NCBI GenBank assembly: GCA_002104985.1
Contig: MCGO01000028.1
Span: forward strand, 186,001-250,000
Origin: Rhizoclosmatium globosum
Lineage: Eukaryota > Chytridiomycota > Chytridiomycetes > Chytridiales > Chytriomycetaceae
DNA: 64,000 bases
Direction of reading: 5' to 3'
Below the pieces are notes generated by a model. It was not told the origin of the DNA. It worked only from the letters and a program-made list of their open reading frames with translations, and did no database searches. The position numbers and the translations under genes are program-made. How positions within the stretch are numbered: position 1 is the first letter of the stretch; every line of letters starts with the position of its first letter. Positions 1,202 through 37,158 of the stretch are shown here, in pieces.

Positions 1202-1302
1202 ATGAATACTATTTTTAGATGTTCCAGGAGCAGGATTGATTTGATTGGTGTCAAAAAGGAAGAAATTAATAAATGTGGTTAAGCAAGGCAACGAACTTAC
1301 GA

Positions 1303-2945
1303 CTACACGTTGTCATCGACACTCCTGCCCTTGCTGTAAACCAGATAGACGTTAATTTGGATGTGTAAGGCGGTTGTCACTGCAGCACTACAAAAGAGTG
1401 CAGCGAGGAAAATAATATCACTGGCATCCCAATCCCGACCATCTTTCTTCCGACAAAAATAGTTACTACAAGCAAACTTTCGTCTGCGATATGGTGGCGA
1501 ATGACAGGAACAAGAAGAGCAGAGCACTGTGGACTGACATTCCGTCACGAAGCAGAAGAAGCCACCTCGCATTTCCTTGATCCATTTGATCTTTCCCCAT
1601 AATCTACCATAAGCCAACTCTGCATACACACCAGTTGCAAAGTATTTGGGGAAAAATACCGCATCAATGCATGTGCTCAAAATCTCAAAAACTCGATGAA
1701 TTACATTTGCAGCTGACTTCATCTTCTCTCGATTATTTTCCATCTCCTCCAGAAAGTCTCGCGGTACAAACTCGCCAAAGTTTTCCTTAACACCAACTCC
1801 ACGTTTCACATATTCCTGATTCCGTTTCAATTCAAGCTCCTCTCTTCGAATGGTTTGGTCTTGTTTTCGAGCCGCGTTCACAGAAACACTGGCTAGAGCC
1901 CTTTCATTCAAAAGTCTCTTACTCAACAAATCAATATCGGCCTCCACATTCTTAATTTCATTCACAGTGAATGGAGGAGGGTTTGTGTTCTTCTTCCCAC
2001 CGGCAACCTCCCATCTTTTCAGCTCAAAGCGTCGCCGAACAATATCTTCCTCCAACCTTTTCTTTTCCTCCATCAAATCCACTACATTTGGTGTTTGATT
2101 TATCAATGTATCCAACTCTGACTGTAATTTAGAATTTCGTTCATGAAGCAACGGGAACTCATAATTTGGCTTGGTGATAAGTCGATCTCCATTACGAATT
2201 GTTGCAGCAAGAGAAGTCCCATTTCCAATGTCGCCACCAATACTGTGCTTGGAATCTGTTTTAAACTCGACACCATCCAAGTTCCGAACTTGAAGCAGCA
2301 AGTTATTTTTCAAGAATGGTTCATGTCGCTTTAATCCTTCAGGATGTCCTGGACGCCACGAATATGGTTCAAATTTGGGAGCAGCAGGAAAGTCAGCCCC
2401 AAGGGTTTCAGTCGGAATTGGTACAAAATCTTGGTGCATGGAAGAATTCAGTAAGATTGCTTATGAATGCCAAACTTCAGTACCTTCCAATGGATTGCAA
2501 CTATCCTGCATACTACTTGACGCCTCCCCCGCCTCCCTCGATTCTTGAGGAGTAGCCTCCTTTTTGGCACGTTTGGGAACTATTGAAGGTTAAAACGAGC
2601 AATAAACAACAAAGAAATTACTTCTATCCCAAGATGGTCGCACTTCACCATTCCACAGTGTTCCATCACTGTTGATTCGTTTAGAAGCAGGGAACTTTTC
2701 TTTCTTCCTTCTCATTTTCAGAGGAGTATGGAAACTGGCTTTGCCTTCAACAAACAATCCAGTAGAGACACAGAGTTCCAAATCAATCAAAGATGGTGTT
2801 GCGCACTTTGACTTATCAAGCAAAATAGAGTTGTCGTTGATAAAACAGACTGGAATGGTCTTGTCGGCTTTGAAAAATACGTCTATAGAACCAACCCCAA
2901 CCTTGACACAAACATCTGTAACACTTAGTTTGGGGCGCAACTTTG
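1303..2945 (-). pseudogene. C-terminal remnant of the element's Fanzor-like gene (nuclease exons kept)
   Basis: Retains the last exons of the large Fanzor-like gene: 1303-2439 is an open frame of 378 codons identical to copy 2 except for one residue (Ala for Gly at 146), and 2590-2940 covers part of the exon upstream. RuvC residues D70, E300 and D336 and the zinc-ribbon cysteines (307, 310, 324, 329 of the open frame) are all kept. Everything N-terminal, about 1,800 residues, is lost through the internal deletion. Three amino-acid changes occur in ~105 residues of the upstream exon versus one in 378 in the nuclease exon. Whether the truncated piece is expressed is unknown. Confidence 0.8.
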
Positions 2946-2948
2946 AAT

Positions 2949-3695
2949 TTTATTGGTTTTATTTGTTTTTGGTTTGTTTTGTGTGGTTTGGTTGATGAAG
3001 GAGGAGGAGAGAATGGGTAGAGGGAGGGGTGGAGTGTCACTGTGGTCCAACAACCCACAAGTTCTAGTTGTAGTTCTCGCTCTGATGCTCAGTCTATATC
3101 GCTCCATGAATCCTGTACACCAACGGGATGATGCAGTGAAGGTTTCTCTACGCTGTTCAGTTCCAACCCCTAGCGCTGCATCAGCCAATAAACTCAAGGG
3201 ATCCTTCACGTATGCCAACATCCACTTGCGCAAGTCTGCCGGCGACACTGCGTATCCACGGTTTCTCTGGTCCGCCACCAGTCCAAACACCTTCACTTCC
3301 TCCTCCAGGAACATACAGCGTACCATAGAAGGGGAAGAAGAGAGTATAGAGGGGTGGCCATCAATATCTACGCTAATGCGCGAGAGAGAGGGAGGGGCTC
3401 TGTTGATGCGACTGTGTTCCTTCCTTCCACCGCCCACCATCACACTTCCCCATCCACAGTCCATATACTTCCCACCTCGCTTCACAGAATCGTCTTTGAT
3501 GGTTTCAAACGATCGTACCCACTTGGACAGCATCGACCTGTTGAGGGAATGTTTAGTAGCAACGGCAGTAAGAGCACCACTGCGAATCTTCCTGTGTGGA
3601 GTAGAGGCAGCAAGCGAGGCAGAGAGTGCTCGCACTTCATCGACGATGCGCAACTTGTACGTCAGTGTGTATTGCTTTCGCATTTGGTGAGCCAT
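2949..3695 (-). pseudogene. N-terminal remnant of pogo/Tigger-type transposase
   Basis: Open from MAHQMRKQYTLTYKLRIVDE (start at 3695) through an N-terminal helix-turn-helix and a CENP-B-type second DNA-binding region, then cut off by the internal deletion; the frame runs a few codons into the other half. Unlike copy 2, the frame is uninterrupted between the two DNA-binding regions (near 3345-3363 the sequence lacks the 5 extra bases present in copy 2). All DDE catalytic residues are absent, so it could at most bind the element ends. Confidence 0.8.
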
Positions 3696-3899
3696 CAGTG
3701 AGTTGTGGTCAAGTTTGGCAAAGAAAAAGTGAAGATGAATGTTCTTCGTCTCTGAAAATAATAGTAATCGTATTTGAATTTAATTCTCATTCCATACTGT
3801 TATAGTATTAAAACAAGACAATGATTTTGGGAACAATTCCCTTTTCCTGCAACAAAAAAAAACTAACACATACACAACCCCAGATTCAAACCCCCCTAT

Positions 3900-25727: not shown

Positions 25728-25734
25728 AATGGTA

Positions 25735-25748
25735 CTATTTTTAGATGT
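25735..25748 (+). repeat. Left terminal inverted repeat of copy 2
   Basis: Begins CTATTTTTAGATGT just inside the TA target duplication; the same bases occur at 1209 in copy 1. Imperfectly inverted relative to the right end, which adds a few bases (CTATTATTTTCAGA read inward in copy 1). Confidence 0.75.
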
Positions 25749-25825
25749 TCCAGGAGCAGAATTAATTTTGGTTGTAAAAAGGAAGAAATTAATAAATGTG
25801 GTTAAGCAAGGCAACGAACTTACGA
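25735..25825 (-). ncRNA. Candidate region for the OMEGA guide RNA of the Fanzor-like nuclease
   Basis: 91 non-coding bases lie between the nuclease stop codon and the left end of the element; copy 1 has 94, mostly the same. In characterised TnpB and Fanzor systems the guide RNA derives from the transposon edge next to the nuclease gene and its guide reads past the edge into the flank. The position fits, but I see no proven structure and no expression evidence. Read outward on the minus strand it would enter the 5' end of the Swf1-like gene. Confidence 0.35.
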
Positions 25826-28800
25826 CTACACGTTGTCATCGACACTCCTGCCCTTGCTGTAAACCAGATAGACGTTAATTTGGATGTGTAAGGCGGTTGT
25901 CACTGCAGCACTACAAAAGAGTGCAGCGAGGAAAATAATATCACTGGCATCCCAATCCCGACCATCTTTCTTCCGACAAAAATAGTTACTACAAGCAAAC
26001 TTTCGTCTGCGATATGGTGGCGAATGACAGGAACAAGAAGAGCAGAGCACTGTGGACTGACACTCCGTCACAAAGCAGAAGAAGCCACCTCGCATTTCCT
26101 TGATCCATTTGATCTTTCCCCATAATCTACCATAAGCCAACTCTGCATACACACCAGTTGCAAAGTATTTGGGGAAAAATACCGCATCAATGCATGTGCT
26201 CAAAATCTCAAAAACTCGATGAATTACATTTGCAGCTGACTTCATCTTCTCTCGATTATTTTCCATCTCCTCCAGAAAGTCTCGCGGTACAAACTCGCCA
26301 AAGTTTTCCTTAACACCAACTCCACGTTTCACATATTCCTGATTCCGTTTCAATTCAAGCTCCTCTCTTCGAATGGTTTGGTCTTGTTTTCGAGCCGCGT
26401 TCACAGAAACACTGGCTAGAGCCCTTTCATTCAAAAGTCTCTTACTCAACAAATCAATATCGGCCTCCACATTCTTAATTTCATTCACAGTGAATGGAGG
26501 AGGGTTTGTGTTCTTCTTCCCACCACCAACCTCCCATCTTTTCAGCTCAAAGCGTCGCCGAACAATATCTTCCTCCAACCTTTTCTTTTCCTCCATCAAA
26601 TCCACTACATTTGGTGTTTGATTTATCAATGTATCCAACTCTGACTGTAATTTAGAATTTCGTTCATGAAGCAACGGGAACTCATAATTTGGCTTGGTGA
26701 TAAGACGATCTCCATTACGAATTGTTGCAGCAAGAGAAGTCCCATTTCCAATGTCGCCACCAATACTGTGCTTGGAATCTGTTTTAAACTCGACACCATC
26801 CAAGTTCCGAACTTGAAGCAGCAAGTTATTTTTCAAGAATGGTTCATGTCGCTTTAATCCTTCAGGATGTCCTGGACGCCACGAATATGGTTCAAATTTG
26901 GGAGCAGCAGGAAAGTCAGCCCCAAGGGTTTCAGTCGGAATTGGTACAAAATCTTGGTGCATGGAAGAATTCAGTAAGATTGCTTATGAATGCCAAACTT
27001 CAGTACCTTCCAATGGATTGCAACTATCCTGCATACTACTTGACGCCTCCCCCGCCTCCCTCGATTCTTGAGGAGTAGCCTCCTTTTTGGCACGTTTGGG
27101 AACTATTGAAGGTTAAAACGAGCAATAAAGACAACAAAGGAATTACTTCTATCCCAAGATGGTCGCACTTCACCATTCCACAGTGTTCCATCACTGTTGA
27201 TTCGTTTAGGAGCAGGGAACTTTTCTTTCTTCCTTCTCATTTTCAGAGGAGTATGGAAACTGGCTTTGCCCTCAACAAACAATCCAGCAGAGACACAAAG
27301 TTCCAAATCAATCAAAGATGGTGTTGCGCACTTTGACTTATCAAGCAAAATAGAGTAGTCGTTGATAAAACAGACTGGAATGGTCTTGTCGGCTTTGAAA
27401 AATACGTCTATAGAACCAACCCCAACCTTGACACAAACATCTGTAACACTTAGTTTGGGGCGCAACTTTGAATCGTCTGCATACTGATGCGCTCGACCAG
27501 ACGTTGCACTAGCTTGGAAAAAACGAACTCCGTTCGCAATGAATGCAGGGGATTGGTTTTGGTGGAGACTGTCCCCACGGAATGCATAAAATAGTTTGTT
27601 GGCTGGAAAGCTGATTGGTTGCGGTTCCCTGTCATAGTTAACAACACCTTTGTTCATATGACTCCTGTTGTAAGACTGAAGATACTTTTGAATGCTCTTG
27701 GGTCCTATTAATTATTGTTAGCAGTTTGGTTGAAAAGTTGGCGCCGCTTACGTTTCTTCCACATTGAAGTAATTGAACTCTTGACTTCAGAGTAAATGTC
27801 TTTTGAAGCATTCTGAAATATCTGGCTATTACCTGCAGAAGTTGGACACAAAACCTCCAATAAACCATTTTGCTTGGTAAACAGATTATCCTGAGCATAA
27901 GCAAATCCCCTAAAATCCTGAATAGCCTGAAGCTCTGACTTACTGTAGCCATCAACGTAATACTCTCTTTTTGCCTTCTTTTCCATATGTTCTGGATCAG
28001 CCCCTCGATTTTCCATCTTTTTGAAAGTAAACGTGTTTTGAAGCGTGCACACTGAGCTATAGAGTGAAAGAAGTGACGTTTCATTCTTTTCTGAACGATT
28101 TGTTGCTGATATTGCACCCGAGTCAGATACGCCATGATTTTTGCAGAAAGACGCAAGTTGTGCTGGTATATCCCACACTAGCAGATTCTGTTGTTGCATA
28201 AGTTCAATATTCAGTGTTGATTGCAGATAAAGTTGACTGAAATCTGAGGTTTGTTCAAATACTGGGTGTTTTCCTTTGTCAATGAATCGAGTCACTGGGC
28301 GAGTGAGAATACATGACAATGTTATAGACTGGGCATAGGTCAAGAAATCCAGGGAGTGTTCTATTGCATCAAACCTAGAATCTGTAGCAGCAACAATAAT
28401 CAATCCAAGACTATGATTTTTTGCATCGGTATTTAAATCTGAATTGCTTCGCATCAAATTTGCAAAGTCGTGAGCCTTTCTATTCCCGAGTGCGTCCAAT
28501 TCTTTCTTTAGTGCCTTAATACGATTTACAATCTCTTTTGCTTCAACAGTGTCATTGTATGGTTGTGAAAGCTTGGCATTTGCTAGAGACATCAGATTCC
28601 AAGATTCTTTCAAATAAATATGCAAAGTTGTTGAAGCTGATGGGGTCTATAGAGGAGAGTTAAATAAGCTTCTGAAATAATCTCAGACAACTCACTTGGT
28701 CAGTTTCCGTGCGTACCTTGTATTCCAGCAGTTTGTCTGCATATTCTCCCAAACCAGCTCCTGGTACATAGAACAATTTTTTAATGGACTTTTGAAGATC

Positions 28801-31800
28801 CAAGATATCTGAGCGCCTTTGATTGGAGAGTTTAGGGATGTGATTGCCTGATTCAGAATTGAGTGGTTCAGGAAAAGCAGTATCAAAAACTTTGCTGAGT
28901 ATAACTTTAGAAATTGTTGATAGCTCGGAATCTGTCGCAGAGCTGTTCCAATAAAACGGGAGTGTCCAAAACTCAAGATTTCCCTTTCCCTCTTTTAATA
29001 CAAGCATATGCGGGACACCCTTTCGAATTAACTTCATAACTTTTGATTTACAATCTCCATCTGCACTGATAGGAACACGTTTAACCAGGTTCATTGAATT
29101 GGTTCCGTCGAGAGCAACAGCCAGAAACAATATCTTTCTTAGTCTCTCATTTGTATCTGTCATTTCCAAATCTTTCAGTGCGTGGGCAATATGAACCAAT
29201 GACCCAAGTTTGTTGGCAGAAATACCAGTTTGAACAAGCTCCCGAAACAAGGAAATCTCATCACATCGCCATGACATTTTTGACAACTCTTGTAAAGATA
29301 ATACATCCGAGGTGGCTAGCTCTTTGAATTGAAATCGTGATTTAAACAGCTCACCGACTTGTAAAATCTGTCTGTCAATCAACTGATTCCCAAAAGATAA
29401 TTCTTGATCCAAGCAGAAGCCATATAACTGCCTTTCCAATAAAGACCGTACATCACATTTTGTGGCAAGCATTACACGCGCACTTGCCTTTTGTAGAGTT
29501 ACATCCTTGTTCAGCTCCTCAACAATAGCAAAGTTTCCTGACATACATTTGGCTAATGCAACAGTCAACCAGTGAAACTTAAAACTTAAAAACAAACCAG
29601 AAGGAGTCTCAAGTCCATTAATGACGTCTCCCGCTTTCAACTTCTTTTCGCCCACATCAGCAGCACTGGAAGCATTCTTGATGGCTTCGTCATATACATC
29701 AACAAACCCATCCTCCAACTTTTTTCCCCTATCTGACTGACTCCCAACACTTTCATCAGAGCATGAATGCTCATCACAGTCTGTATCCATGTGAGAGCAA
29801 CTGGAATGATCACTTTCACCACAAGCATCAAACAATGGAGCAAACATATTTGAATTAGAAGAGGCAGAAGAACGTACAGACTTTGGTTGTGGCGGTGGGG
29901 GAATATAAGTCAAAATTGGAGCAACTCGGTTTTGTTTGGGAATGGGATTGTTAATATTTTGGGATGGAAGATTATAGCGTCGAGCCGGATGAATATCAAA
30001 AGAGGTGGCTTGATCTTTGCTGACACGAACTTCAAACGTACGGACACTTGACTGACCCACTGAAGTTACAAGAAAATGTGCTATTGTGTCCTCATCCACT
30101 TTAACTTTCAGTTTCAATTCGGTGCCAACAACATCCACCACAACAAACTCAGTGTCTATTTTCTTTGAATCCAGCAAAACACAGTTAATTTGCATCATTA
30201 ATTCTTTGTCGGGCTTATAGCCAGGTGGATTTGTTGGAAGAAACTTAGAAAATCGTGAAGGTGCAAAATTCACCAAGTCGTGAATAATTTTGAGCTTTGC
30301 TGTGTGATTAGCCTTGTTAGATGGCTTTTTCCCATCCAATTCTTTGTTTCTGCAACCGTACACAACCTCTGCCGAGTTTAGAGCCAGTTGAAGAATATCA
30401 GGCACAGTTTCATAAGCTGCCAAAACACCAGACCTCAGAATATCACCAACAACCACCTGATTTTTGAAGAACGTACTGTAAATTGAAGTGTTTGACGAAA
30501 GAAGCACACCGATTGGAACTGAATAGTTTTCAACAGCTGCGAAAGGAACATCCATTTTGGCCTTCTCAATATTCACCAAATGGTCCTTCATACAACCCAT
30601 TTTATCTTGTTGGTATTTTTTAGCTGTTGAACGCAACTGTTGCATCACTTCAGATCCAGGGTCTATTAAGTCAAACCGGAAACGCTTTTCCTTTGTTTGA
30701 TCAAAGTAAAAAACACCGCACGCATTCATACCATCACTTCCAAGAATATGCTGCAACGCAAGACCTCGTCCAACTCCATCTTCTGTGTTTTGAATAGTGA
30801 AACATGAATCATGATTCATTCGTGGAGCCACAAGATCCAGTTCAACCAACTTGGGGTTACCATTGTTACTATCAATGAGACCAACAGCTTCGAATTCAAT
30901 AATATTGCGAATATAAAATGGCGACTGCGTTGTCACATTTTCTCGCAAGTAGTTACCGCAATCCTGAAGTGGTTTCTTTCCCTCCTCACAGCTTTGGAAT
31001 AGAATGCTAATAAAGTTAGTATCCACATCAGAGTCAAAAAGATTAGAAACATCTTCTCCATGCACATAACGTCGTGCAATTTCTGTTGCCTTGAGTATCT
31101 CCATTGCATCTCCAGCCCTATTCTTTTTCATATTCGAAACTCCTCGAGTGATTAACGTTTCAACAGCACTTGAAAAGTATTGACCATTACTGCCAAGACA
31201 AAGACGGTGTTGAACAGAAAGCTCAAATTCAGAATGTGATAGTGGTTGATTATGTTTACCCAAGATCACACCTGAATAATCTATTCGTGTTCCTTTTGAC
31301 GACTTGATTGATGAGGGAATTAGATGAGAATAGAGACACAATTGATTTGAACTAACCGGTGGAGGCAAGAAAGTGTCACCAATGATAAACTGACGAAAAT
31401 ACTGGTATCCATCCCCAAGAATTGTCTCTTGAACCTTTTCACGTTGAACAAACGTTGGATTTAACAATGGCTTCCCAAAAGAATCCCCAAAAAACATTGA
31501 AGCAGCTTGAGATCCAGTGTACAAATTTTGGGGATCAGAAACAAAGCTCCAAGGCTTTCCATCAGACCAAAAAGAGTAGCAACTGTTGCTAACAAGCCTT
31601 GAAAAGTTTTCATACGCAGCAGTGAGGACTATTGCTTCAAGCTCCGATTCTAATTTCAGAGAAGCAACAAACCCACTCTTGAAGTGCGATACAACAAACA
31701 AATCCAAATACTTTCGAACAGAAGGAGCTGAAGGGTTCTCCCGAATTTGTTTCATAAAGTTTTCTTTGTAGCACATGGCCGCGGTGTGATCAAATCCAGT

Positions 31801-33371
31801 GACAGAGTTTATAGAAAAAGGTATGGTAGACTGTTTTGCTGACTTGGTAGTAGGCTTGGTTGGTGAGGCCTTGTAAAAAGTCTTGACTGGAATACCACGG
31901 GAAAGGTAATAGTCTTTCTGGTCCTTTCCAATTGCAACCACTTCCACTATATTCCATCCAGCTGCAGCATACAACATATAATTTATATCCATGTGCTTGT
32001 GAAGCACTTGAATATCAATTGAACCTTCAACACGCCGCCTTCCCTTCTCATTGGGTTTTCCTGCATTACAAACACCTTCAACAATGTCAGACAATAATAA
32101 CGTGGATTTACAAGGAGCAGTTGCCAAATTTGGATTACAAGGTGCATTTGTAGCAATGGAAGCTGGATTACAAGGTACATTTGTAGAAGTGGACGAAGAG
32201 GGAGCAGAGCAGGGAGCAACTACAGGATCACTATTAATGGCAGTAACTTGAACAGCGTCATAGCCAGAACACCATGGCTTATGCTCAGTGAACAAAATAG
32301 ATCGGTGGGGCAGATTGGCTCCATCACCAATATTATCACGCATCAAATACACTTTCAGAGCATCTGGAGTAAGATCCATATCTGAGGCAACCATATTCAA
32401 ATCTTTCAATGCTTCAAGCGTCGCCTCAATCATGGTATGATGAAAGAAGCTTGTGTGACCTGTTCAAAAATAAGTAAAGAATACAGAAGGAAGCAGAAAC
32501 TCCACCATTTTCTCCGTCGCAGCCACAAACAAATAGCTTTGGACATTCAAAGTGATATAGAACAGTATCTTCATGGAAACCACTCTTGATGAATTTGGAG
32601 TGTTGTGCAACCATGAAAGCAGCCTGGAAGTGACCGTGCTTGAATACTGCCTTGTACTCGTTGAGGGCACCAACTAAATCCGTTGAATCTTTATCAAGAA
32701 GCCTTGACAGTCTTTCCTCAAGTTCGAGCAAATCCTTCAACGCTGTTGGTGAACGCAACATTGCAAGACCGTCACGAGCTATTGCACCATATCCTTCACG
32801 AGAAGAACCTTGCAACGTGAAATCGGTGTGGGCGTAGAGAGCGTTTGTGAAATGGAACTTGGCCTGTAAACAGTAGTTATTACTGGCGCATCATTGGCAA
32901 TAAACTCACGTATTGGGAAGCAACAGTGTTATTTCGGGGGGGCTTGGACGGCAACGGAAGATTCAGTGAATCCAATTTGGCTTGGGTGGCGAACGACGTT
33001 GACGACGATCCAATCGACGCAGGATTTGCATTCGTTGTCAACATCTCTGTTGAATGGGATGATGAGGCAGTATGTGACGACTATTGATTGATCAGTCACT
33101 CGAGCGCGGGGCAAAGAAACAAAGTACTTACCATGTAACGTTCGTAATCCATTTCGGCCGTCCATGCAATGGTGGCTGCAGCACGATCCGCTTCCTGCTC
33201 AAGGGTATAAGCACTATACAATTTAACAGAGACACTCACATGACTTCGCAAATGGCGCTGATAGAGAAAGGGATTGCCGGTAAAGTCCTTACCACAGCTA
33301 CAAAGAATGGTTTGATGCGAACGTTTCGAAGGCGGAGACTCATTGGTGGGGGCCTTGCGCTTGCGTTCCAT
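25826..33371 (-). CDS. Giant Fanzor/TnpB-like RuvC nuclease, ~2,387 residues, nine exons
   Basis: Exons (minus): 33240-33371, 33132-33194, 32910-33080, 32506-32863, 28696-32459, 27752-28646, 27147-27704, 27007-27102, 25826-26952. The introns are GT-AG, 44-54 nt, and every join is in phase, giving 2,388 codons with stop. N-terminus MERKRKAPTNES is followed by a possible zinc finger (CSCGKDF...HLRSH, ~residues 25-44). The middle ~1,900 residues match no family I know, with an Asp/Ser-rich acidic patch near 29.75 kb. The C-terminus is TnpB/Fanzor-like: HSIGGDIGNGTSLAATIRNG (RuvC-I Asp, ~2079), DAVFFPKYFAT (RuvC-II strand), FCFVTECQSTVLCSSC (alternative Glu, ~2309, plus first zinc pair), FACSNYFC and GRDWDASDII (RuvC-III Asp, ~2345). 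Known Fanzors are RNA-guided DNA nucleases; that is inferred here. The length is extreme for the family. Confidence 0.72.
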
Positions 33372-33570
33372 TTGTTGGATCGTTTCTTGATGCAAAGTGC
33401 AAGTTTTTTTGTTTTGTGCCGGATGAATTGGGCCGGGGTTGATAACAATCAAAGATTGATTAGTAAATCTGGCTTGGCTTGTGTAATCCGCTAAATTACA
33501 AGTGAGTGTATCCCGTACTTTATAGGAATGAATATCAACGTTCACTGAACTTAATAACCGTAAAAATGAT

Positions 33571-33648
33571 AACCCTACACCCAAACCTAACCCTAACCCT
33601 AGTCCTAAATCCAGTCCTAAACCTAGTCCTAAAACATAACCCTACGTC
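33571..33648 (+). repeat. Degenerate telomere-like repeat inside the element
   Basis: Contains CCTAACCCTAACCCTAG followed by several variants of the type CCTAAA(C/T)C and AGTCCTAAA, i.e. C-rich strand of TTAGGG-like repeats with drift. Located ~200 bp upstream of the Fanzor-like start codon. Absent from copy 1 because of its deletion. Confidence 0.8.
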
Positions 33649-33695
33649 CACACAATCAACATTTAATCATCACCCGTCGCTTCAACAATGAACAG

Positions 33696-33849
33696 GACGA
33701 TGGCCAAGAGATTACCTCTAATGCCAACCACAAGAGAAGACGATGGCCAAGAGATTACCTCTAATGCCAACCAAAAGAGAAGACGATGGCCAAGAGATTA
33801 CCTCTAATGAAAGAGAAGATGATGGCCAAGAGATTACCTCTAATGCCAA
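33696..33849 (+). repeat. 43-bp tandem repeat, about four units
   Basis: Units begin GACGATGGCCAAGAGATTAC and continue CTCTAATGCC; two full 43-bp units, one shortened to 36 bp and a last partial unit. It ends just before the 3' end of the zinc-ribbon gene. There are no unique spacers, so it is not a CRISPR array. Confidence 0.9.
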
Positions 33850-33866
33850 CTAAAACCAATGAATGT

Positions 33867-34687
33867 TTATTTCCAAGTTCCCGTCATAAAACGCAAAGCA
33901 CATTCAACGCAATTTGAATCATTGCAGCATTGAACTCTGCATTCGTCAGTAGAATGAAATGGAGCTGAACAGTGATGGCAAGTTCTTGGCTTCAATTTCC
34001 GAGTCCCACGTTCCTGACACTGCATATACTGACAATTCTGAAACTTGCATAGCTTCTCCCAACCCAGCTTGGTGTGCCGACGACCACTGAATGCATTGTT
34101 TCCACAATGGCCACACCAAATCGCTCGGTTCGACTTTCTCCAAGCATTGACACGCGTTACATACAAGTCCCAGTTAATAACGTCGTCAACGTCTAGATCT
34201 CCATCATTGTTTGCGATATTTTGTCGACTTTCAGCATACTTGATCCGTAACATCAAATTTGAAATATAAGTTGAAGAGTCTATTGGTGATAGATGTCAAT
34301 CTTGGCAAGGTTACTTTCAAAGCTTACCATTATCAGTTTGATTGCCCAATTCCAGATCCGCGTCTTACCACAATGCGTAGAGTTGTTGTCCACCGTTTGT
34401 GGCTGTTTGTGCATGTTTGACAGCTTCTACTCGCTCGTGGCACTCCAGTTCGTCTTCAGCAATATCAGAGGACTGATTTGCATCGTCATTGTTGTTATCC
34501 TGTCAAGTACTGATTGATGAGTCCACAAAGCAAACAAATAAACTAGACTCACCTCATCTGATTCTGACGAGCTACTAGAATCACCCTCGCTACAAACAGA
34601 GACACAATCAGCTGTGTAGTGTGTTGAAGGGTCCTCTTCAAGTCGTGCAATAATGGATGCCAGCGAGAAGAGGAACGAGTTTGACAT
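33867..34687 (-). CDS. Cys-rich zinc-ribbon protein encoded by the element
   Basis: Starts MSNSFLFSLASIIARLEEDP at 34687; the first exon ends in an acidic/Ser stretch (SSSSSESDE) at a GTGAGT donor, followed by DNNNDDANQSSDIAEDELEC. A further join, whose exact splice sites I could not settle (donor GTAAGC near 34323 and acceptor CCAATAG near 34276, with a possible very short extra intron upstream), leads to the last exon from ~34275: MLRIKYAESRQNI, DVDDVINWDLYVTRVNAWRK, IWCGHCGNNAF, LCKFQNCQYMQC, TCHHCSAPFHS, CCNDSNCVECALRF, ending FMTGTWK. At least 13 Cys in pairs suggest two or three zinc ribbons. No known family recognised. Its start codon faces that of the histone gene 20 bp away, implying a shared promoter. 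Possible DNA- or chromatin-binding partner; inference only. Confidence 0.6.
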
Positions 34688-34707
34688 CTGATTGATTTAC
34701 GTCGAAA

Positions 34708-35333
34708 ATGCTTGGCAGACGCACAAACTCAAACAACACAACCAACCTACGAAGTCGCAACTTGGTGCGGGTTCATCGCACTTTGTCGAAATCATTTGGA
34801 GTGGACCGCTGCAATGTTAGGCCAAAAGTGCCCCGAGCCGCCTCCCTATCTGCAAAAGCGCGAATGGAGAATCAAGACTGGCAAGAAGCTCCTTCTCCGC
34901 AAAAAGAGAGACGCCGTCTTCCGCCTGGTGTTGCCGCACTGCTTGAAATTAAAAAATACCAAAGTCGCTTCAAACTAATGATTCCGACTGCCCGTATGAA
35001 ACGCCTGGTGAGCAACTACCTTCCTGTCACACTCGTCTCATAAGTAACTCAAAACAGATCTTTCAAATTCTCCGCGAAGAATATCGCAGTCGCAGGCCTA
35101 ACGAACGTATTCCGGTTGTCTTTGAATCTAATCAAAATTCAGAACCAAATGCGAACCATCGATACTTGCTTCAAAAGAACGCCCTTGTTGCCATTCATGA
35201 AGCGGCTGAAGCTTATCTTGTGTCTTTCTTTGAAGATGTTAATCTTGCAACAATTCATCGCAAGCGTGCAACCATTGACAAGGACGATATAAACTTTATC
35301 AAAACATTACGCTCTAGAGCTGGTTTACTTTAA
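34708..35333 (+). CDS. Divergent (CenH3-like) histone H3 variant carried by the transposon
   Basis: Two exons, 34708-35007 and 35058-35333, 50-nt GT-AG intron in phase 0, 191 residues. Exon 1 ends [20 protein letters not shown] and ARMKRL (residues 71-100), matching H3 PGTVALREIRRYQ and the helix before alpha 1. Exon 2 contains [33 protein letters not shown] and [12 protein letters not shown], matching H3 [30 protein letters not shown] and DIQLARRIR. The N-terminal tail (~70 residues) lacks the ARTKQ and ARKS modification motifs, and the loop between alpha 1 and alpha 2 is about 20 residues longer than in H3. A novel tail plus long loop 1 are features seen in centromeric H3, so CenH3-like is a fair label; whether it enters nucleosomes is unknown. 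Confidence 0.88.
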
Positions 35334-35466
35334 ATAAAATATCATTCATGTGAAGGAGAGACGGGGAGTACGAAAAAGATTTATGCAACCTTTCCTTTGG
35401 AACCCCAAACCAAAGAACTCTTGCAATAACAGAGTCTTATCTTTGTTCTCCTTAGCTCTTTATTGT

Positions 35467-37019
35467 TTACTTATTTCTTCCCCACAACCCTTTCCTAAAA
35501 GCAGATCCAAAAACATTGTTGTCAATATCATTCCATGCATTACTAATCCAATCACAGATCACAGCGTAACTAGGGCGCTTACGTCTTCCGTCTGCATTCA
35601 ACTCGCTCGCATCTGTCATGGAACTCCGCATCCAAACTGTCCACCTTCGCCGAATTCCATCTTTGAAAGGTTTGATGATTCCAATATCTAGTGGCTGAAG
35701 TTTTGACGTGTATCCACCCGGAATCACAGCGGGAATTATTCCAGTATCCTTAAATGCACTCTTTACTGGGTGAGTCAAGTGAGCTTTGTAACTGTCCAAC
35801 AACATCATCAGTTTTCTTCCAGAAGATTCGGATTTAAATTGAGGAATGCACTCGTTGAGAATCAAGTCACTATCGAACCAGGCATTTTGTTGAAATGTAA
35901 CTTGAACACTGACTCCAAGAGCACTGACTTGAGCAGGCACCGTTTTGGCCAGTCGACCAGTTCTTGCACCCTTAAAGACAACTAATGGAGGAAGTCGATG
36001 TCCATCCCCGCGACATGTCAATCCAACCGAGAATCCAGTCGACTCGTTTCCAGTATTCTTGATGATTACATTTGTCGATCCTTTCCAATGCACTGTATTC
36101 TTGAGCGACATATCAAAGTAGAGTCTAGTTTGATCAAAGTTGTAAATATCTTTGACAGTGAGACCATTCGTTTGTTGTCTGTAAATGAAATCATCAAAAA
36201 GAGCGATCTTTGGATCAGTACCAGCCACGAAAGACGAAACAGGAGTAAAGAAAATGTTTTTGTTTGTTTTATTGGTTTTATTTGTTTTTGGTTTGTTTTG
36301 TGTGGTTTGGTTGATGAAGGAGGAGGAGAGAATGGGTAGAGGGAGGGGTGGAGTGTCACTGTGGTCCAACAACCCACAAGTTCTAGTTGTAGTTCTCGCT
36401 CTGATGCTCAGTCTATATCGCTCCATGAATCCTGTACACCAACGGGATGATGCAGTGAAGGTTTCTCTACGCTGTTCAGTTCCAACCCCTAGCGCTGCAT
36501 CAGCCAATAAACTCAAGGGATCCTTCACGTATGCCAACATCCACTCGCGCAAGTCTGCCGGCGACACTGCGTATCCACGGTTTCTCTGGTCCGCCACCAG
36601 TCCAAACACCTTCACTTCCTCCTCCAGGAACATACAGCGCACCATAGAGGGAGATGGAGAGAGTATAGAGGGGTTGCAACCCCATCAAAATCTACGCTAA
36701 TGCGCGAGAGAGAGGGAGGGGCTCTGTCGATGCGACTGTGTTCCTTCCTTCCACCGCCCACCATCACACTTCCCCATCCACAGTGCAGAGACTTCCCACC
36801 TCGCTTCACAGATTCGTCTTTGATGGTTTCAAACGATCGTACCCACTTGGACAGCATCGACCTGTTGAGGGAATGTTTAGTAGCAACGGCAGTAAGAGAA
36901 CCACTGCGAATCTTCCTGTGTGGAGCAGAGGCAGCAAGCGAGGCAGAGAGTGCTCGCACTTCATCGACGATGCGCAACTTGTACGTCAGGGTGTATTGCT
37001 TTCGCATTGGGTGAGCCAT
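35467..37019 (-). pseudogene. pogo/Tigger-type DDE transposase, frameshifted
   Basis: N-terminal part MAHPMRKQYTLTYKLRIVDE begins at 37019 (an in-frame Met at 37073 also exists), with a psq/CENP-B-type helix-turn-helix. A second DNA-binding region (AVSPADLREWMLAYV, WCTGFMERYRLSIRARTTT) follows. The catalytic DDE_1 domain has three aspartates: IYNFDQTRLYFDM (D171 of the 392-codon second frame), LMMLLDSYKAHLT (D284) and KLQPLDIGIIKPF (D320), a DD35D arrangement as in pogo/Tigger. Between the DNA-binding regions, near 36669-36684, five extra bases relative to copy 1 shift the frame, so the protein is split. No intron with good sites repairs it. Stop TAA at 35467-35469. Confidence 0.85.
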
Positions 37020-37074
37020 CAGTGAGTTGTGGTCAAGTTTGGCAAAGAAAAAGTGAAGATATATGTTCTTCATC

Positions 37075-37088
37075 TCTGAAAATAATGG
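37075..37088 (-). repeat. Right terminal inverted repeat of copy 2
   Basis: Read inward from the right end it is CCATTATTTTCAGA (copy 1: CTATTATTTTCAGA), an imperfect inversion of the left end CTATTTTTAGA. TA follows directly at 37089-37090. Confidence 0.7.
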
Positions 37089-37158
37089 TAATTGATGTTT
37101 TTCACAATAACTTTCTTTTCCCTCCCATTTCTTTTATTTCTCGTAAAAGAAAGGAAAT

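Follow-up and report, generated by a model that had tools for sequence, protein, structure and literature searches.

A divergent histone H3-like gene and an outsized Fanzor-like gene within a predicted pogo-type transposon of the chytrid Rhizoclosmatium globosum

Histone genes carried by DNA transposons are known from hAT elements of other fungi. In Pyrenophora tritici-repentis, a hAT element present in 26 copies carries the divergent H3-like gene H3L, whose transcription is documented by expressed sequence tags, and the authors of that study already asked whether altered chromatin helped transposons to spread (Manning et al. 2013, PMC3538342). H3-carrying hAT elements were also described for Pseudocercospora fijiensis as well as for five other genomes; in these Mycosphaerellaceae elements the histone cargo is decayed, repeat-induced point mutation having inactivated all but the original (Dhillon et al. 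2019, PMC6710886). Moreover, Mariner elements that are flanked by TA and bear mixed cargo were found to include Fanzor1 (Bao and Jurka 2013, PMC3627910). Here, an element termed E1 is described from the chytrid Rhizoclosmatium globosum, which holds an H3-like gene and a Fanzor-like gene between the same two ends. It was recognized in a stretch of 64,000 nucleotides (positions 186,001 to 250,000 of contig MCGO01000028.1), hereafter referred to as the window. An initial reading of this DNA from its letters alone (hereafter the sequence-only reading) had assumed that no transposon was known to encode a core-histone variant, an assumption contradicted by the hAT elements mentioned above.

E1 resembles the P. 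tritici-repentis element, a DNA transposon with terminal inverted repeats, in encoding a transposase, another open reading frame (ORF) and a divergent H3-like protein. H3L was reported to be neither H3 nor CenH3, and its element features a shortened recombinant form and recent expansion, as is the case for E1; the two differ in that the former is a hAT element with forms of 5.6 and 2.3 kb, whereas E1 is of predicted pogo type, measures 11.4 kb, includes a Fanzor-like gene and is present in four copies (PMC3538342). The P. fijiensis element shares with E1 the capture of histone H3 by a DNA transposon and its subsequent amplification, but there a housekeeping H3 gene was captured without introns and reached hundreds of copies (PMC6710886). 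For the Fanzor1 Mariner elements, the cited part of the report describes no histone, and E1 differs from them by the tripeptide DIG in place of DPG and by a protein length of 2387 aa (PMC3627910). Transposon-borne H3 is thus already known from other fungi, and in E1 the H3-like gene likewise lies between the ends and was multiplied with the element. New are the pogo-type superfamily, the Fanzor-like partner, the early-diverging fungal host and a histone sharing only 44% identity with host H3 in the fold region, lengthened by 24 residues near loop 1 and altered at several DNA-contact positions. No report of a pogo-type element combining H3 and a Fanzor-like gene was found among the matches listed from the open-licence PMC literature. 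The explanation regarded as probable is that E1 represents a pogo-type transposon encoding a giant Fanzor-like protein together with an accessory cassette of H3-like and zinc-ribbon-like genes; capture of the cassette, considered by itself, is held with still greater confidence.

Within the window, copy 1 of E1 spans positions 25735–37088 (11,354 bp, no strand assigned), as delimited by comparison of copies and by the dinucleotides TA at 25733–25734 and TA at 37089–37090. Its left end reads CTATTTTTAGATG... and its right end, reverse-complemented, CCATTATTTTCAGAG..., the right-end form of copy 2 being CTATTATTTTCAGAG. The inverted ends are short and imperfect, consisting of approximately five perfect bases (CTATT) and an imperfect extension; a single mismatch is present on the right side of copy 1. 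Searches of the R. globosum assembly (56.9 Mb), to which all genome searches refer, revealed four copies, all located on the 491-kb contig that includes the window (C201); screening with the left 601 bases of E1 yielded 14 matches, three of which represent E1 copies at 98–100% identity. Copy 2 (window 1209–3764, plus strand) features the same ends and flanking TA, is 97–99% identical to copy 1 and lacks a single internal segment corresponding to window positions 27474–36266. Copy 3 (C201:387486–398926, minus strand, 11,441 bp) lies outside the window and is near-complete, with aligned blocks 97.4–98.8% identical; both ends are present with TA on each side, the flanks are unlike those of copy 1, and 30 nt are missing just inside the left end. 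Depending on the part compared, copies 1 and 3 diverge by 0.3–2.7%. Copy 4 (C201:101163–105929) is an internal fragment equivalent to window positions 30461–35163, broken off within exon 2 of the H3-like gene.

These results bear out the unit as delineated by the sequence-only reading, with shared short inverted ends, flanking TA and copy 2 as a simple internal deletion, and add copy 3 to it. When the joined flanks of copy 1 were searched against the assembly, every match fell on one or the other side of copy 1, and no empty site was encountered for this copy. Mobility therefore rests on three of the four copies, each of which retains both ends and is bordered by TA within flanks that differ. 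E1 is a mobile element, and the H3-like gene travels with it, because copy 3 occupies a TA site of its own and contains an intact H3-like gene. The placement of both the H3-like and the Fanzor-like gene inside the mobile unit is likewise upheld. The occurrence of all four copies on one contig could mean local hopping.

The transposase module (35344–37088, minus strand) comprises a helix-turn-helix-bearing ORF (36612–37073) and a DDE_1 ORF (35467–36645). The latter matched the DDE_1 profile with 76.7 bits (cut-off 22, E 2.2e-21), and the former HTH_Tnp_Tc5 with 21.3 bits, just below the cut-off of 22.2. Based on the TA target and the DDE_1 transposase, E1 is classified by sequence as a member of the Tc1/mariner-pogo group of cut-and-paste transposons, in agreement with the type first proposed for it.

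The H3-like gene consists of exon 1 (34708–35007) and exon 2 (35058–35333) on the plus strand, separated by a 50-nt GT..AG intron (35008–35057), and encodes 191 aa; exon 2 covers the loop-1 insertion, alpha 2 and alpha 3. The public protein BCR33DRAFT_718308 shows the same length and splicing at 99% identity. The spliced protein matched the Pfam histone family with 57.3 bits (cut-off 26.4, E 2.4e-15), and a CENP-T_C match of 16.6 bits stayed below its cut-off. Among the solved chains matching the protein, the best 60 of 173 are H3. In the fold region, 41 of 94 aligned residues (44%) are identical to host H3, and 24 extra residues are inserted around loop 1. The H3 positions E97, E105, D106, H113, K115, R116 and D123 are kept, and replacements were observed at R42P, T45, R49L, K56S, R63P, K64T, R72F and K122D. 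We take R42, R49, K56, R63, K64, R72 and K122 to be DNA-contact positions, and H113, R116 and D123 to be positions of H4 and H3-H3 pairing. The tail is unlike that of H3, the motif ARTKQTARKS being absent. An AlphaFold model (mean predicted local distance difference test score, pLDDT, 55.7) comprises four helices in histone order (75–87, 94–110, 132–170 and 175–188).

A search of 5.8 billion proteins retrieved only the entry of the organism's own genome as a close relative; six others, 32–39% identical, are divergent H3 proteins, one of which (P0004) has a shorter loop insertion and the remaining five none. In a ten-row tree, the end branch of the H3-like protein measures approximately 4 changes per column, and no supported fork places it or groups it with cenH3. 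The reading frame is open in both near-complete copies (copies 1 and 3), whose H3-like genes (576 bases) are distinguished by a single synonymous and a single non-synonymous change, the latter altering one of 191 residues. DNA of the H3-like gene was found in the genome only within copies 1, 3 and 4 (3 of 3 matches), and the same applies to that of the zinc-ribbon-like gene (3 of 3). Weak histone matches on contigs C123 and C364 revealed no H3 when inspected and were dropped. A viral origin was likewise rejected, since none of the 39 pattern stretches from one scan of viral contigs was a relative.

The Fanzor-like gene occupies the minus strand from 33371 to 25826 and, according to a hand-made splice model, comprises nine exons forming a stop-free ORF of 2387 aa. 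Its last exon (26952–25826) encodes D-I-G, 232 residues, then S-T-V-L, four cysteines and R-D (D-X232-ST-VL-C4-X5-RD). This arrangement agrees with the Fanzor/TnpB motif D-X(125,275)-[TS][TS]XX-C4-X(5,50)-RD as defined in PMC3627910; the spacing is 232 in E1 and 233 in the sister element E2 introduced below, and the motif matched only 2 of 40000 shuffles. Regarding the features reported for Fanzor in PMC10711439, the alternative glutamate six residues ahead of the zinc finger is present in E1 and E2 (E-CQSTVL-C), and RuvC1 features DIG, not DPG, in both. The Pfam TNB match of 18 bits is below the cut-off of 26.3, and with 2387 aa the protein is far outside the published Fanzor size of 400–800 aa. 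No homologue at E<=0.001 was recorded in the own genome among 13 candidates scored, nor for the last 597 residues among 8000 candidates under a length rule excluding longer proteins; solved structures gave no match at E<=1. Since motif and glutamate are present, but DIG, a sub-cut-off TNB match, no homologue within the length rule and outsize length stand against them, the protein is classified on its sequence as Fanzor-like and not as a strict Fanzor, with RNA-guided cleavage as a putative activity. The sequence-only reading of a Fanzor-like nuclease thus holds for the motif and the glutamate and fails on DPG, the TNB cut-off and size. A single-sequence structure model of the Fanzor exon (pLDDT 49.0) was too low for use, and RNA from the left end of E1, considered as a putative guide, was not predicted to fold better than shuffled sequences (z 0.75). 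The first exon (33371–33240) is rich in Cys and His; its assignment as C2H2 was dropped, no Pfam match having been obtained at E 1. The segment 25797–25907 at the 3' end of the gene is 83–84% identical to loci on contigs C372, C221, C63, C2 and C1, where the rest of the 601-base query was unmatched.

Relatives of E1, designated E2, were identified at five further loci. The sister element on contig C399 is flanked by TA and bounded by CTATT ends; it contains a related Fanzor-like gene and a transposase module 93% identical to that of E1 at the nucleotide level. Four more loci (C334, C89, C410, C223) match in the Fanzor part at 68%, and at three of these the transposase module is also present with unchanged orientation, for a total length of approximately 10 kb; at C223, no transposase module was found among 40 of 48 candidates scored. 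In the last Fanzor exon, 167 of 374 residues are identical between E1 and the element on C399. Synonymous divergence between E1 and E2 amounts to approximately 2.3 in the Fanzor exon, which is near saturation, and 0.24 in the DDE exon. Because it is roughly ten times lower in the latter, the transposase and Fanzor modules have different histories, and the transposase module has been exchanged between element families. Ratios of non-synonymous to synonymous divergence of approximately 0.23 for the Fanzor exon (synonymous divergence being near saturation) and 0.31 for the DDE exon indicate that both proteins are under purifying selection.

Next to the H3-like gene lies the divergently transcribed zinc-ribbon-like gene (33867–34687, minus strand), whose product has a Cys/His-rich C terminus. 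Based on a hand-made splice model, it comprises three exons in copy 3, where it is open, and is interrupted by an in-frame stop in copy 1 and a stop in copy 4; the public model is shorter (153 aa). Its protein gave no Pfam match at E 1, and a protein search returned the own genome's entry as the one relative. Both genes are flanked by the 5' end of the Fanzor-like gene on one side and by the transposase module on the other; alignable sequence between E1 and E2 resumes at 35344, 11 bases past the H3 stop. On C399, the one E2 element read as a whole, no histone match was obtained, and inspection of the ORFs of 50 aa or more in the equivalent stretch revealed none; at none of the five E2 loci was a match to the PF00125 profile or to the H3 DNA found. 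Because no sister locus shows an H3 match, the two genes are interpreted as an accessory cassette of E1, and the earlier view of H3 as an integral part of the element is not supported.

Several observations weigh against the interpretation as an acquired cassette with a histone as cargo. The pattern among sister elements would be compatible with gain in E1 or loss in E2. The PF00125 search overlooked exon 1 of the H3-like gene in the window and the truncated gene of copy 4; histones at the sister loci that are still more divergent could therefore also have escaped it. Furthermore, the structural model of the H3-like protein is of low confidence, and its sole PDB match, a nucleosome entry, is weak (E 0.087). 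The close similarity between copies 1 and 3 leaves no power for a test of selection on H3, and the zinc-ribbon-like neighbour is broken in two of the three copies.

Under the preferred interpretation, the H3-like gene derives from an H3 variant gene, since it has an intron, and has diverged enormously. Its product would still pair with host H4 and another H3, as H113, R116 and D123 are kept, and would grip DNA less, given the replaced contact positions and the altered tail. If made, it would assemble into nucleosomes that are loose or short-lived, or would tie up histone chaperones, and the resulting weaker silencing would be in the element's interest. A function of this kind in weakening chromatin is considered rather unlikely. 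That the histone may mark or protect E1 or steer its target choice, as proposed at the outset, stays a hypothesis and is not supported here.

A neutral passenger, for which the chance falls just short of even, would be a divergent H3 variant caught by chance and multiplied by transduplication, so young that its frame is still open. In favour of this, only two near-complete copies exist, with aligned blocks 97–99% identical, and the decay of the zinc-ribbon partner as well as the five sister loci lacking a histone match point in the same direction, as does the decayed H3 cargo of the Mycosphaerellaceae hAT elements (PMC6710886). However, the protein is far from every compared H3 and yet has kept the fold signature and an open frame, from which it follows that most of the gene's history passed under constraint, in a host or in an element and not necessarily in E1; moreover, the histone search of the assembly showed no closer host source gene.

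A second element of this genome contains a passenger of this type. An exon from a different H3 variant, featuring its own long loop 1, was located at C146:217316–217474, C393:101445, C68:244771 and C79:400410. By inspection, it starts at the codon where the intron of the E1 gene sits. At all four loci it is accompanied by the same helicase ORFs, with PIF1 matches of 53–55 bits in the two scanned, and a neighbouring ORF at C79 matched Helitron_like_N with 13.9 bits, under the cut-off of 28.9; because of the PIF1 match and the sub-threshold Helitron_like_N match, the element is called Helitron-like only. C68 and C79 share flanks, leaving at least three independent sites. Both elements are repeated, and in each the H3 variant has an extended loop 1 and, by inspection, the same intron position, but the Helitron-like element carries the last exon only, frame-shifted at C68 and C79, and this exon is a captured passenger fragment.

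A histone serving E1 by loosening or redirecting chromatin at the element, thereby aiding escape from silencing or target choice, is regarded as doubtful. It would fit the open frame in both near-complete copies and the retention of fold and dimer-interface residues alongside the loss of DNA-contact residues, and the divergent, transcribed H3-like gene of an unrelated fungal transposon (PMC3538342) suggests repeated recruitment. Against it, the sister elements do without H3.

A captured cenH3, by which a CENP-B-like pogo element would be tied to centromeres, is very improbable. Long loop 1 and a non-H3 tail, both present in the E1 protein, resemble those of cenH3, CENP-B originated from pogo transposases, and the sub-threshold CENP-T_C match would be in line with this origin. 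However, a likely host cenH3 gene (C57:352603–353156) is approximately 76% identical to canonical H3 in the fold, whereas the E1 protein reaches only 44% and 43% to canonical H3 and cenH3, respectively; the values of 76% and 43% are rough, as the cenH3 row is an approximate hand-joined model with an unfixed exon junction and guessed join residues. Since the tree, too, offers no supported placement with cenH3, this identity is not supported. Finally, a false joining of the H3-like and Fanzor-like genes by misassembly, for which the location of all four copies on one contig could speak, is rejected as having a negligible chance, given the same order in two near-complete copies and a fragment with different flanks and 0.3–2.7% divergence (copies 1 and 3), and the same layout without H3 on another contig (C399).

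Among the remaining features of E1, a degenerate telomere-like tract of the CCCTAA type (33583–33633, plus strand) lies in the interval that separates the 5' end of the Fanzor-like gene from the cassette, followed by a 43-nt minisatellite of 3.9 units (33696–33854, plus strand), whose array is longer in copy 3 (approximately 0.29 kb). Both adjoin the cassette and may represent a scar of its acquisition. An Rfam scan of the window yielded no match.

Taken across fungi, unrelated DNA transposon superfamilies may have recruited divergent H3 repeatedly, since a loosened, element-encoded H3 would aid escape from silencing; E1 would then be the extreme case, in which the histone is joined by a giant protein related to RNA-guided nucleases. 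This generalization is considered decidedly unlikely at present. The independent H3 captures in hAT elements (published) and in the pogo-type and Helitron-like elements described here make convergence testable. The Fanzor-like protein of 2387 aa, with DIG and the alternative glutamate, would widen the known range of the Fanzor superfamily. Should the H3-like histone prove to be produced and put to use, this would show that transposons supply a chromatin component themselves, and direct manipulation of chromatin by mobile elements would become a question that can be tested at the bench.

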